From: Halobellus sp. MBLA0158
GTDB lineage: Archaea > Halobacteriota > Halobacteria > Halobacteriales > Haloferacaceae
Length of the DNA stretch: 64,000 nt
Assembly: GCF_041477585.1 (NCBI RefSeq)
Contig: NZ_JBGNYA010000001.1
Location: 2,542,001-2,606,000, forward strand
Direction: 5' to 3'
Shown here: positions 9,362 to 37,887 of the stretch, in pieces
Position numbering within the stretch: position 1 is the stretch's first letter
Layout of the letters: every line of letters begins with the position of its first letter
Position numbers and translations under genes: made by a program
Notes under the pieces: model-generated
What the model saw: only the letters and a program-made list of their open reading frames with translations
Told to the model about the DNA's origin: nothing
Databases searched by the model: none

Positions 9362-10015
9362 ATGACGAGCAAACAGGACATCATCGTCGCCGGCGGCGGG
9401 CGCGTCGGACTCCAGACCGCCCGACTGCTCGCCGACCGCGACAACGACGTATCGATCATCGAACCCGATCCGGACGTCGTCGACGAGATCGCCGACGAGT
9501 GGATCGCGACCGTGATCCGCGGGGACGCGTCGACGCCGGACATCCAGAAGCAGGCGGGCGTCGAGGGGGCCGACGCCATCGCCGCGCTGACGGGCCACGC
9601 GGGGCTGAACCTCGCGATCTGCCTGGTCGCGAAGGAGCTCAACCCCGAGATCAGGACGGTTACCCGGATCCAGGAGGCGACCGGCGAGGCCTACGCGGAG
9701 TTCGTCGACGGCGTGGTGTTTCCCGAGCACGCCGGCGCCCGCGTGGCCGCGAACGAGATCGTCGGCAGCGACGTGCAGACGCTCGCGGACGTGACCGGGC
9801 GGATCGACGTGATGCAGATCCGGGTCCAGGAGGGCGCGCCGGCTGCGGGCAAGACGCTCTCTGAGGTCCGCTTCCCCGCGGGCGCGCTCGTCGTCTCCGG
9901 CGAGGAGGGCGAGCAGATCGCCCAGCCGGAGACGGTCATAGAGCCCGGCAAACGCTACGTCGTCGCCGTCGATCCCGACGTCGCCGACGAGGTGATGAAT
10001 CTGCTCCGCGGGTAG
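9362..10015 (+). CDS. TrkA-family NAD-binding regulatory protein (TrkA-N plus TrkA-C)
   Basis: 217 residues. The N-terminal Rossmann domain (about residues 5-118) has GGGRVG at 11-16 and the acidic end of the second strand (IIEPDPD), the usual NAD(H)-binding pattern of RCK domains. A TrkA-C domain occupies about 135-215. Such proteins sit on the cytosolic face of potassium channels or transporters and gate them in response to nucleotides. No Trk/Ktr membrane subunit is nearby. The immediate upstream partner is the APC permease, 69 bases away, so it more likely regulates that transporter. Start chosen at the only suitable ATG. Confidence 0.88.
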   Translation: MTSKQDIIVAGGGRVGLQTARLLADRDNDVSIIEPDPDVVDEIADEWIATVIRGDASTPDIQKQAGVEGADAIAALTGHAGLNLAICLVAKELNPEIRTVTRIQEATGEAYAEFVDGVVFPEHAGARVAANEIVGSDVQTLADVTGRIDVMQIRVQEGAPAAGKTLSEVRFPAGALVVSGEEGEQIAQPETVIEPGKRYVVAVDPDVADEVMNLLRG

Positions 10016-10058: not shown

Positions 10059-11378
10059 CTACTCGCCCTCCGGTCCGAGGTACCCCCACGCCAGGAGGCG
10101 GTCGCCGTCGCCGTCGATCCAGCGCTCGCCGATGTCGTCGCGGTAGTAGAGGTTCGGGATGACGACGTCGTCGACGCGCTCGTAGGCCCGTTCTCGCGCG
10201 CGCTGCATCGTGTCGCCTTTGCCGGTCACGACAATCGGCATCCCATTGTCGCCCGCGGACCGCCACTGCCCATCGACCTTCTTCGCGTCTTCGAGGTGGA
10301 TCCCTTCGCGGCTCTCGGTTTGGAAGACGACAGCAGCGTTCCGGGAGTTCTCATCGTACGTCTTCTCGTCGTCGAACGGGAACGGTGGCAGCACGACCCG
10401 AACACCGATTTGGTAGCCGTTGTGCACCTCCAGTTCAGGATCGTTTCCGTGGGCGAGATCATAGAAGAACTCGCCGGTTGACGACTCGATTGACTCTTCC
10501 TGCAGTGCGATGGTCGGGTACCCGAACCGCGGCGTGAACTCCAGTGGGTAGATCCCGTTCTCGTTCACGATGCAATTCAGGTCGATACTCCCGACGTAGC
10601 CCTCGTTGGCGAGCCAGTCTTCGATTTTCCCGAAGGTCTCTTTGAACAGTTTGTTCTGCCCCGCCCAGAACATGGACGTCCCCATCTCACCGGTCTGCGG
10701 GCCGATGTTTCCTGGGAATAATTTCTTATGCTCAAAATTAAAGTTGACCTGGTCAATGAACTCGTTGCCGTTGAAGAACCCGCAGATAGCGACTTCAACA
10801 CCCTCGACTTTCCGCTGGAGTTGGAACCCCTTCATCCGGTGGCCCCACGCTTTCTTGTAGGCCCGCAGGACATCGACAACATCGCTCCCGTCATCGTCGT
10901 TCCCAACGTAGAGGAGTCGCTTGACGTTCTGGACTTCGCCGAGTGGTTTGATCACGTACGGGGCAGGGTTCTCTTGGACGTGCTGGATGCCGGCATCGAA
11001 GTCGTCGAAGATGTGGTGCTCGACGGTATTCACACCATGTTCTTCGAGGATCTCCATCGCATACCCCCGGTCCTCTTCGAGATGATCAGTGTTTGGTGTC
11101 CCGCCGACGACGGCTTTCCCGTCCTCGCGGAGTTCCTTAGCGAGCGCGCCAGTCCCGATGTCGGAGCCGACCCAGATGTCGTCGAAGATGATGACATCGG
11201 CCCACTCAACTTCGGCGCGCCAGTCATCCGTCTTTGGGACGAAGCCGTCGCCGATCTCTTGATCGCTTTCGGCTTCGATGTAGTACTTCACGTCGTGGCC
11301 CTCGCGGTGAACTTGCCAGGCCAGGTCAGTGATCAATGCGGCGTCGGCGGAGACGAACAGGAAGTGTTTGGATTCCAT
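10059..11378 (-). CDS. PurD-like ATP-grasp ligase, chimeric full-length copy
   Basis: 439 residues beginning MESKHFLFVSADAAL. Haloarchaeal proteins of this type are usually named phosphoribosylamine-glycine ligase; visible features fit an ATP-grasp carboxylate-amine ligase, including YVIKPLGEVQN for nucleotide binding and the metal-site segment YPLEFTPRFGYP. Classical PurD features such as an N-terminal GGGGREHA motif are absent, so the substrate is uncertain. Base composition is mixed: from roughly 10210 to 11378 the gene is visibly richer in A and T than its surroundings, while the last 150 bases (10059 to about 10200) have normal high GC. Together with the truncated homologue next to it, this indicates a recombinant gene. 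I place the start at 11378, since the preceding 15 codons lie in an AT-rich promoter region. Confidence 0.85.
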   Translation of the reverse strand: MESKHFLFVSADAALITDLAWQVHREGHDVKYYIEAESDQEIGDGFVPKTDDWRAEVEWADVIIFDDIWVGSDIGTGALAKELREDGKAVVGGTPNTDHLEEDRGYAMEILEEHGVNTVEHHIFDDFDAGIQHVQENPAPYVIKPLGEVQNVKRLLYVGNDDDGSDVVDVLRAYKKAWGHRMKGFQLQRKVEGVEVAICGFFNGNEFIDQVNFNFEHKKLFPGNIGPQTGEMGTSMFWAGQNKLFKETFGKIEDWLANEGYVGSIDLNCIVNENGIYPLEFTPRFGYPTIALQEESIESSTGEFFYDLAHGNDPELEVHNGYQIGVRVVLPPFPFDDEKTYDENSRNAAVVFQTESREGIHLEDAKKVDGQWRSAGDNGMPIVVTGKGDTMQRARERAYERVDDVVIPNLYYRDDIGERWIDGDGDRLLAWGYLGPEGE

Positions 11379-11458
11379 AGTATAATATTTAAGTTTGGGT
11401 CTGTAGTGTTTACGTAGCCACATTTAATGGACAATTGTGCACTAAATCACACCTTTTG
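11379..11458 (-). promoter_or_regulatory. AT-rich spacer and promoter brought in with the chimeric PurD-like gene
   Basis: About 80 bases between the breakpoint of the truncated copy and the start of the intact copy. It is AT-rich, with a TATA-like CATTAAATG (minus strand, about 11421-11430) and a second stretch CTTAAATATTATAC just before the ATG. An 8-bp palindrome, ACAATTGT, lies at about 11431-11438. Base composition resembles the low-GC part of the downstream gene rather than the flanking genome. Confidence 0.5.
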
Positions 11459-12108
11459 TGCCCGAAGTTGAAGTTGACCTGGTCAATGAACCGCTCGCCG
11501 TCGAAGAACCCACAGATGGCGATTTCGACGCCCTCGACCTTGCGCTGGAGCTGGAAGCCCTTCATCCGGTGCCCCCAGGCTTTCTTGTAGGCACGGAGGA
11601 CGTCGACGACGTCGCTGCCGTCGTCCTCGTTGCCGACATAGAGGAGGCGCTTGACGTTCTGGACCTCGCCGAGCGGCTTGATCACGTACGGGGCGGGGTT
11701 CTCCTGGACGTGCTGGATGCCGGCGTCGAAGTCCTCGAAGACGTGGTGCTCGATCGTGGTGACGCCGTGCGCTTCGAGGACGTCCATCGCGTAGCCGCGA
11801 TCCTCTTCGAGCCGATCGGTATTCGGCGTGCCGCCGACGACCGCCTTCCCTCGCTCGCGGAGCTCCTGAGCGAGCGCACCGGTGCCGATATCGGATCCGA
11901 CCCAGATGTCGTCGAAGACGACGACGTCGGCCCAGTCCACTTCCGCCCGCCAGTCGTCGGTCTTCGGGACGAAGCCGTCGCCGATCTCCCTGTCCGATTC
12001 GGCCTCGATGTAGTACTTCACGTCGTGGCCCTCGCGGTGGATCTGCCACGCGAGGTCCGTGATCAGGGCGGCGTCGGCGGACACGAAGAGGAAGCGTCGA
12101 GTCTCCAT
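11410..12108 (-). pseudogene. Truncated native 5' half of the PurD-like gene
   Basis: Starts METRRFLFVSADAAL and follows the intact neighbour with roughly 89% amino-acid identity for about 218 residues, up to DQVNFNFGHK. Similarity then stops abruptly and the frame runs into unrelated sequence (RCDLVHNCPLNVAT) and a TAA at 11410-11412. The intact homologue continues for a further 220 residues. GC content matches the host, so this is most simply the original gene's 5' part, cut off by the arrival of the foreign segment. The missing C-terminal half contains the metal-binding part of the ATP-grasp fold, so the product should be inactive. Confidence 0.85.
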
Positions 12109-12179: not shown

Positions 12180-12584
12180 ATGGCGACCTACGTACTCGCG
12201 ACGAACCACGTCGACACGAGCGCACAGCTGTGCGACTACCTCCTCGATCGGGTCTCCCGCAGCGACGAGATCCACGCCGTCAACTCCCTCCCCGGCGGCG
12301 ACGACACCTCGAGCCAGGACGTCCGGGACGGCGAGGAGGCCCTCAACGTCATCTCCGCCCGGCTCGCCGGCGTCACGACCGTCGAGACCCATCAGTTCGT
12401 CCGCGGGAACGACCCCCATACCGACGTGCTGGAGCACGCCGACGACGTCGACGCCGACGAGATCGTCATCGGCATCCGCAAGCGGAACCCGACCGCGAAG
12501 GTGGTCTTCGGCAGCACCGCCCAGCGGATTCTCCTCCACTCGAATCGCCCCGTCGCGGTCGTCCCCCTCGTCGAGGTCGAGTAG
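12180..12584 (+). CDS. UspA-family universal stress protein
   Basis: 134 residues, one UspA domain. The C-terminal GSTAQRILLHSNRPVAVVP segment (about residues 111-129) is the family's phosphate-binding region, here GSTAQ-type rather than the classical GSxS. The N terminus ATYVLATNH is the first strand. Single-domain proteins of this kind form dimers in the cytosol and often bind ATP. The gene has its own TATA box at the distance for leaderless transcription, and it ends one codon boundary away from the convergent hydrolase gene with no gap. Confidence 0.88.
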   Translation: MATYVLATNHVDTSAQLCDYLLDRVSRSDEIHAVNSLPGGDDTSSQDVRDGEEALNVISARLAGVTTVETHQFVRGNDPHTDVLEHADDVDADEIVIGIRKRNPTAKVVFGSTAQRILLHSNRPVAVVPLVEVE

Positions 12585-36423: not shown

Positions 36424-37059
36424 GTGGACGCCGAACAGGACTCCCTCGCGAACCCGTTCAGCATGGACGCCGACTGCCGGAACTGTGACGGCCTCTGTGA
36501 GGCCCGGTCGAACGTCGTCCACGGCTACGGCGACGTCGGCGCGGAGTTCCTCTTCGTGGCCGAGCGCCCCCACGCCGGCGCGGACCGGACCGGCGTCCCC
36601 TTCACGGGCGATGCGGCCGGTCGGCGCCTCCAGTCGATCCTCGGCGAACTCGGGTTCGCGCGCTCCGAACCCGAAAGCGAGGAGCCGGACCTCCAGAACG
36701 TCTTTCTCACGTATCTCACGCGCTGTCGCCACCCCGAGCGCGCGCCGACCGACGAGGAAGTCCGCACCTGCGAGCCCTACCTCAACGCCGAGGTGCGGAT
36801 GATCAACCCCGAGATCATCGTCCCGATCGGCCAGCGCGTCCTCGACGCGCTCGCGACGGACTACACGACGAACCGCCCCGGCGATATCGACGTCAGAGAG
36901 GCGCACGCGACGACGATCCGCGGCCGGGGCTTCGAGCTGGTGCCGATGGTCGACCTAGAGTCCCAGACCGACGCCCAGACCGAGGCGTTCGTCGAGCACC
37001 TGCTGGAGAACGTCTTCGCTCGCGACTACCGGCAGACGAAGGGGCGTCGCGGCCGATAG
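36424..37059 (+). CDS. Divergent uracil-DNA glycosylase-like Fe-S protein
   Basis: 211 residues from a GTG start. The fold and spacing resemble family 4/5 uracil-DNA glycosylases: three N-terminal cysteines (18, 21, 25) and further cysteines in LTRCRHP and VRTCEPYL for an Fe-S cluster, the PFTGDAAGRRLQSIL block, and INPEIIVPIGQRVLDAL. The catalytic motif is unusual: VAERPHAGADRTGVPF replaces GEAPGxxEDxxGxPF. Loss of the GEAPG motif makes standard uracil excision uncertain; altered substrate range is possible. Confidence 0.8.
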   Translation: MDAEQDSLANPFSMDADCRNCDGLCEARSNVVHGYGDVGAEFLFVAERPHAGADRTGVPFTGDAAGRRLQSILGELGFARSEPESEEPDLQNVFLTYLTRCRHPERAPTDEEVRTCEPYLNAEVRMINPEIIVPIGQRVLDALATDYTTNRPGDIDVREAHATTIRGRGFELVPMVDLESQTDAQTEAFVEHLLENVFARDYRQTKGRRGR

Positions 37060-37125
37060 CACGTCGGGGAGCGGCGCCGACCGCGGAGCGTCGGGTTCAA
37101 GACCGCCGGCGGCCGAGACGCGGGT

Positions 37126-37887
37126 ATGACCGTCGTCGCCGTCCTGGCCGACCCGCCGCGACCCGGACTCGCACTGCCGCGGCTCGCGGAGACGAGCCCG
37201 CTCTCGGAATCCGAGACCGCCGCGCTCGCCGAAGCGATGCTCAAGGACACGCTCCAGGCCGTCGAGCGCTCCGGGGGCGACCTGCTCGTGAACTACCGAC
37301 CTGACGACCTGCTTCCCGAGTCCCACGTCGACCCCGAGGGGCCGGCCGAGGCGGCGGTCCGCGCCGTCGCCGAGGACGCGCTCGACGACCCCGAAGAGGC
37401 GCGTTTCGAGGTACAAGTCGGCTCGTCGCTGTCGGCGCGCGCCGGCAACACGCTCACCCACCTCCTCCGGGAGGAGGGGGTCCAGTCGGCGGCGGTCGTC
37501 CGCGGCGATGCCCCGTTCCTGCTCCGCTCGACGATCGACTCGGCGGCGATGAAGCTTCGCTCCAACGCGGTCGTGCTCGGGCCGTCGACCGACGGGCGCG
37601 TGTACTTCGCGGGCTTCCGCGAGCCGATCGACTTCGAGGGGGCCTTCGCGGCGCCCGAGGCCGAGACGCTCGTCGACCGCGCGAACGACGCCGACCGCGA
37701 CGTCGGCTTCATCGAGATGCAGCCGACCGTCAGGACCGGTGCCGACCTCGCGACGGTCGTTCCGATAATCCGCTCGCGCTGGCAGGCCGAACGGGTCGTC
37801 CCCGCCCACACCGCGGAGTTCGTCGTCGAGAAAGGACTGGCCGCGGTCGAAGGCGACGGCGGCGACCTGGAACTCATCCGGGAGTGA
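37126..37887 (+). CDS. DUF2064-like nucleotidyltransferase-fold protein
   Basis: 253 residues. The order of strands and the segments VVAVLADPPRPG, ALAEAMLKDTLQAVERSGGDLL and VVLGPSTDGRVYFAGF suggest a GT-A/nucleotidyltransferase fold close to CofC and DUF2064 proteins. The canonical acidic metal-binding motif is weak (RGDAPFLL). Activity and substrate unknown; a role in F420 or cell-surface metabolism would be a guess. It stands between the glycosylase-like gene and tRNA-Ser. Confidence 0.6.
   Translation: MTVVAVLADPPRPGLALPRLAETSPLSESETAALAEAMLKDTLQAVERSGGDLLVNYRPDDLLPESHVDPEGPAEAAVRAVAEDALDDPEEARFEVQVGSSLSARAGNTLTHLLREEGVQSAAVVRGDAPFLLRSTIDSAAMKLRSNAVVLGPSTDGRVYFAGFREPIDFEGAFAAPEAETLVDRANDADRDVGFIEMQPTVRTGADLATVVPIIRSRWQAERVVPAHTAEFVVEKGLAAVEGDGGDLELIRE

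Follow-up and report, generated by a model that had tools for sequence, protein, structure and literature searches.

A stretch of 64,000 nucleotides from the genome of Halobellus sp. MBLA0158 (hereafter the window; C1:2542001-2606000 of its assembly) carries two copies of an ATP-grasp gene, the first truncated and the second complete. The truncated copy ends at the very codon at which large integrative elements, still intact and carrying a tyrosine integrase, interrupt the same gene in four other haloarchaeal genomes, and the complete copy is silently recoded over precisely this site. Our results make it very probable that the window locus is the scar of such an element, composed of a fossil of the native gene, an element-derived leader and a replacement allele. 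Its main parts are the following:

10059..11378 (-), full-length replacement copy of the ATP-grasp gene, 439 aa, an open reading frame (ORF) sharing codons 1-15 and the attachment (att) block with element copies
10218..10238 (-), codons 381-387, where element-like sequence probably gives way to host-like sequence, from maximum chi-square
10713..10745 (-), recoded att site of the replacement gene, in which codons 212-222 encode NFNFEHKKLFP and 7 of these 11 end in A or T, as in bona fide element copies
11379..11457 (-), leader, made of an element-derived att arm of type B, common to genome G326, and an AT-rich promoter region
11452..12108 (-), fossil, 5' part of the native ATP-grasp gene, residues 1-219, beside the native neighbour encoding a universal stress protein (USP)
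11458..11464 (-), att core of the window, CGGGCAC, in the codons that are the crossover point in G119, G149, G101 and G303

The split gene and the intact elements

A preliminary description of this DNA had reported two head-to-tail copies, at 10059-11378 and 11410-12108, and both ORFs were found as described. The truncated ORF (minus strand, 232 aa) is homologous to the full copy over residues 1 to ~219 and then continues into unrelated AT-rich leader sequence; the fossil, of 219 codons, lies upstream of the full copy with a gap of 75 bp between them. Their protein identity, previously put at about 89%, is 88% over residues 1-220; at the nucleotide level, 60-nt segments of the region that they have in common are 75-92% identical. 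The lower GC content announced for the full copy, except at its 3' end, was also recovered: GC at third codon positions (GC3) stays at ~0.6-0.83 as far as codon ~390 and then reaches 0.93-0.95, a 3'-end rise that ranks third largest among about 108 homologues. GC3 is mostly 0.83-1.0 in the fossil and 0.94-0.97 in the flanking genes. The label "PurD-like" holds in a wide sense only, as the protein has a GARS_A domain and its closest solved chains are PurD (E 3e-21), but scores 94.7 bits against TIGR00877 (PurD), whose equivalog cut-off is 288. No further copy is present in the window genome, besides one distant PurD relative elsewhere. An unannotated, 30%-identical ATP-grasp relative is also encoded at the genome end of Manatee Spring tailed virus (MW202796.1; locus L116, 10001-11305).

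The gene was then surveyed in 392 haloarchaeal genomes, and is present in 150 of them. It is split at residues 212-218 in G119, G149 and Halorubrum cibi (G101), the fourth case being Halogeometricum limi (G303). In these split genes a full copy, preceded by a short leader, adjoins the 5' half, and the orphan 3' half lies at the far end of the element, whose size ranges from 74 to 136 kb. In G119, the 5' half (113804-114457) is followed by the complete copy (112418-113728), and the 3' half is found at 36591-37268. The halves are 74-117 kb apart on one contig in G119, G149 and H. limi, the 3' half of the latter (384749-385453) being ~74 kb from its 5' half and the G149 split spanning 117 kb, with a complete copy that has acquired a frameshift. 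In H. cibi the halves are split between two contigs, and the element measures about 136 kb.

All intact elements end in AT-rich inverted arms flanking a 7-bp core in codons ~217-219; the left end reads CTTCGAGCAC up to the junction and TATTTCCGGGATCTATTATATAA after it, and the right end TTGTATAATAGATCTTGGAAATA and CGAGCACAAGAAG, respectively. The core, CGAGCAC, lies inside NFNFEHKKLF and is found in both attL and attR, attL of H. limi having CGAACAC. The insertions are exact, since the host halves, when put together at the core, again form a single open gene of 436-442 aa in all four genomes (the joined ORF of G149 reads beyond the usual stop). These elements thus display a direct-repeat core at both ends and exact restoration of the target, as gene-restoring elements do. 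The tyrosine integrase that is also expected of such elements is present in G119, G149, H. cibi and H. limi, and absent from the window. It is a protein of ~383 aa, 83-92% identical between the four elements, encoded in each of them directly downstream of, and convergent with, the complete copy. The host halves follow the host lineages and the element copies cluster by element: in H. limi, identity to the window protein is 51-63% for the halves and 92% for the element copy. The presence of such elements, whole and inserted at this one codon, in four genomes bears out the earlier proposal that the native gene gave way to a foreign allele equipped with a promoter, as happens with target-restoring elements, and that the site is an integration hotspot.

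We propose that a large integrative element would have inserted itself into the middle of the native ATP-grasp ORF. The tyrosine integrase of the element would recombine the core in host codons ~217-219 with a palindromic attP, formed by AT-rich arms around the 7-bp core and lying ~80 bp upstream of the gene copy that the element carries. After integration, the native 5' half, the leader with its promoter and the complete replacement copy would stand at one end, and the native 3' half at the other. Synonymous changes over the att core should protect the replacement copy from the integrase. The ancestor of the window genome would later have lost the element, the fossil, the leader and the replacement copy remaining in place. 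Homologous recombination of the replacement copy with the orphan 3' half could have made the last ~55 codons host-like, and a separate, later rearrangement would have brought the TrkA-APC genes alongside. Both the role of the integrase and the order of loss in the window genome are what we infer from the arrangement of these loci. On balance, we lean towards a broader view, in which this is a natural "integrate and rescue" element that interrupts a conserved gene always at the same codon and brings along a complete copy with a silently recoded site. The host would keep its gene, the copy would be immune, and repeated visits would have left resistant alleles across haloarchaea.

Recoded attachment sites, leaders and other scars

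Over the core, native copies read TTCAACTTCGAGCACAAGAAGCTG and element copies TT(C/T)AATTTTGAGCATAAGAAATTA (TTG in G326), the encoded peptide being identical. In five element lineages, including the full copy of the window, 7 of the 11 codons 212-222 end in A or T, compared with 17-33% of codons in the remainder of each of those genes (hypergeometric p 0.001-0.04 each). TTA is used at the att leucine in 17/108 copies, against 52/2620 leucine codons elsewhere. The recoded block is found in all leader-intact copies, the window's included. Third-position identity among element copies peaks only at codons 1-15 and 211-225, and is elsewhere mixed as in natives; these two segments were likely kept by selection, for leader linkage and integrase escape, while the remainder was converted by resident alleles.

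Leaders could be followed in the same genomes. The window arm, TTCGGGCACAAAAGGTGTGATTTA, and that of G326, TTCGAGCACAAAATGTGGGATTTA, agree at 18 of 21 pattern positions, and a putative TATA-like sequence, CTTAAATATTAT, was judged by eye at 11382-11393. In the 392 genomes, convincing matches to the type B arm are restricted to the window and G326, which harbours an integrase-less scar of the window's kind with this same arm type. A further integrase-less scar, with a type A leader, is found in G257, and locus L081 of a Natronomonas metagenome-assembled genome is probably a third scar of the window's kind. Decayed type A leaders precede L064, L079, L136 and L054, and the copies with decayed leaders have the native att form. 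In genome G028, an IS6-like insertion (L029, 1501-3508) lies at codon ~226, a few codons from the att core, with an 8-bp target duplication, GGGAACAT. It was considered as a part of the element story and set aside as a separate event.

The recoding would make the rescue copy immune to the integrase, judging from the position and distribution of the block. It could alternatively be that the element is correctly recognised and that the AT-rich codons 212-222 are no immunity device, being a relic of shared ancestry or serving another role. We regard this as a real possibility, though the less likely one. About 11 native-place copies without a leader, mostly in Halorubrum, also have the recoded block, which, with the native form of the decayed-leader copies, would suit a relic. 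These leaderless copies may be alleles remaining after complete excision of the element by homologous recombination. A relic would leave unaccounted for a bias that falls precisely over the core in five element lineages, with an unchanged peptide, and that is kept wherever the leader is intact. Leaderless and fossil-less copies with the block are found at L035, L041, L039, L065, L122, L128 and L133, in Halorubrum, Halogranum and other relatives, and could be traces of earlier visits by the element.

The leader also bears on whether any element has to be invoked. The head-to-tail order and a protein identity of about 88% would also result if the native gene had been duplicated in tandem, the first copy then losing its 3' half and the second one drifting. 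Such a history is nevertheless highly improbable: the fossil and the full copy stand apart, with different closest relatives, in a tree of codons 1-217, the intergenic sequence is an att arm and leader shared with a genome of another family, and the sisters have a single copy.

History of the locus in the window's lineage

Of the named organisms in the genus set, Halobellus rarus, captivus and rufus are nearest to the window genome. In the comparison with sister strains, which the preliminary description had put forward as a check, the single copy of the sisters is at the syntenic place, and the native upstream order (lhr-Zn-hydrolase-X-hydrolase-USP-gene) is kept in the window. In H. limi, the USP and hydrolase genes are likewise on the same side of the fossil. 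From this native upstream order, it follows that the fossil stands at the original place of the gene. The immediate neighbours of the locus are:

12180..12584 (+), universal stress protein, native upstream neighbour
9362..10015 (+), TrkA-domain gene, present downstream neighbour, not ancestral, the carotenoid locus being 349 kb off

Downstream of the gene, a carotenoid locus is found in the sisters and in H. limi, whereas TrkA-APC-glp is found in the window. In the window genome the carotenoid (bacterioruberin) locus lies at C1:2197041-2203082, 349 kb from the gene and in the same orientation, and no orphan 3' half is present beside it. A further rearrangement has therefore broken the locus near the 3' end of the gene. 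There is thus a multi-break chromosomal rearrangement at the old site of the element. The glpC gene is ~3 kb away in the window, and ~80-90 kb downstream in the sisters.

The 3' end of the full copy tells a different part of this history. A switch to host-like sequence at codon ~381-387 is probable, with moderate support from sequence comparison: the maximum chi-square test gives p<=0.001 for four Halobellus parents (L014, L015, L022 and L105) with L035 as the other parent, and p 0.01-0.27 for proven element copies against L014. Such a host-like 3' end would be expected if the rescue copy had recombined with the orphan 3' half and the element had been lost in this way. In a diagnostic-site scan against type A copies, the full copy is mixed, save at its 5' and 3' ends. 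The earlier idea of a recombination into the 3' end is retained as regards this switch, which falls near the "last ~150 bases" then indicated, but not as regards the 5' break, which is a site-specific att core and not a product of homologous recombination. The chimera that had been envisaged does include a foreign allele, but what arrives with the element is an entire gene and not just a new end for the native one.

Several observations weigh against an element scar at this locus. No Phage_integrase match is found within the 64-kb window, in line with the earlier remark that no integrase remains, and neither attR nor the orphan 3' half is left in the window genome. The type B arm was not seen on a live element in the 392 genomes. 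The chimera break is strong only when L035, itself apparently mosaic, is taken as the donor-like parent. Only in its 5' end and att block is the full copy nearer to proven element copies than to natives, and gene conversion has therefore been part of its history. Finally, because of the downstream rearrangement, the loss was not one simple deletion.

Given the lack of an integrase in the window and the host-like last ~55 codons, a linear foreign fragment carrying the gene and its promoter could be considered, which would have entered integrase-free by a homologous crossover in the 3' part and an illegitimate join in the 5' part. This is unlikely, as the break shares its codon and core with four integrase-bearing elements and with other scars, and as the recoding of the att block coincides exactly in position with that of the element copies. 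The scar of an integrative element thus remains our preferred reading of the window locus.

Integrase module, cargo and known systems

In the intact elements, two small conserved genes precede the integrase, one of them being uncalled in G119, and beyond this module lies a common cluster of six unknown, HNH or RNase-H-like proteins. Anti-virus systems are among the cargo. The G119 element carries BREX genes (BrxA, BrxB, BrxC, PglZ and BrxL) that are 97-100% identical to those of H. limi, the two hosts being from different families, and the G149 element carries a DpdA/QueC-type (Dpd-like) DNA-modification cluster. The latter element (L150/L148) also contains a near-identical inverted duplication of two unknown-protein genes (1456249-1457224 and 1485815-1486790). 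For the 53 proteins of the G119 element, obtained from home-made gene calls, neither a relaxase nor a conjugation ATPase/coupling protein is among the 25 listed of 46 matching Pfam families. In a PHROGs scan of the same proteins, no capsid, portal or large terminase is among the families listed, where the matches are the integrase, HNH, a methyltransferase and one terminase-small-subunit-like protein. No relatives of the ATP-grasp gene or of the integrase were found in IMG/VR, and a plasmid search with the integrase gave distant matches only, so that a free form of the element was not found.

No duplicated target gene lies within ~6 kb at any of 16 loci with ~41-47%-identical integrases, one of them in the window genome, and the rescue copy thus looks special to the present integrase subfamily. 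In this wider family, a conserved operon encoding a ribbon-helix-helix-like protein of ~150 aa, a protein of ~155 aa and the integrase occupies other chromosomal sites (C1:3098402-3099499 in the window's own genome, L218, and L264-L279).

These results indicate that a mobile element can dock in the middle of a protein gene without costing the host that gene, and that this hotspot is a route by which BREX genes and a Dpd-like cluster pass from one haloarchaeal genus to another. The scar is moreover readable, as the fossil half gene, the leader and the recoded site allow past visits to be counted. No paper on this hotspot was found in the open-access literature, most subscription journals lying outside it. 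To our knowledge, it is also new for a rescue copy in mid-ORF to be full-length and recoded.

Low-GC islands with integrases and restriction-modification genes have been described in Halorubrum ezzemoulense (PMC11078007), and the present elements resemble them in these respects; a keyword search of that paper found neither an ATP-grasp target nor a rescue copy. Among elements that restore the 5' end of their target gene are SXT, in prfC (PMC8409611, citing Hochhut and Waldor, 1999), and the dusA-targeting integrative elements (PMC4482086). As in these, a site-specific integrase acts on a protein-coding target, which an element-supplied promoter and coding sequence keep expressed. In those elements insertion is at a gene end and the replacement is fused to the native remnant, whereas the present ones insert at codon ~218 of the 439, leave both native halves dead and supply a second copy, which is complete and recoded at the site. 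Thaumarchaeal integrated elements, according to PMC6563490, occupy 3'-distal regions of protein genes, one being a casposon in a phosphoribosylamine-glycine ligase gene. They share with the present elements an archaeal host, a protein-gene target and, once, the same wide target family. Their position, however, is 3'-distal, a stop codon is restored in the example shown there and the purD case is a casposon, as opposed to a mid-ORF site, a tyrosine integrase and a full replacement copy here.

The working logic resembles that of synthetic home-and-rescue gene drives, in which a conserved gene is targeted and a re-coded rescue copy escapes the enzyme (PMC7968924). The silent recoding observed here suggests that a rescue copy could be protected by this same principle, so far met in engineered gene drives. 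The likeness is one of analogy and not of membership: those drives rely on engineered Cas9 homing in insects, whereas the present system is a natural archaeal element with a recombinase, likened to them only in its logic.
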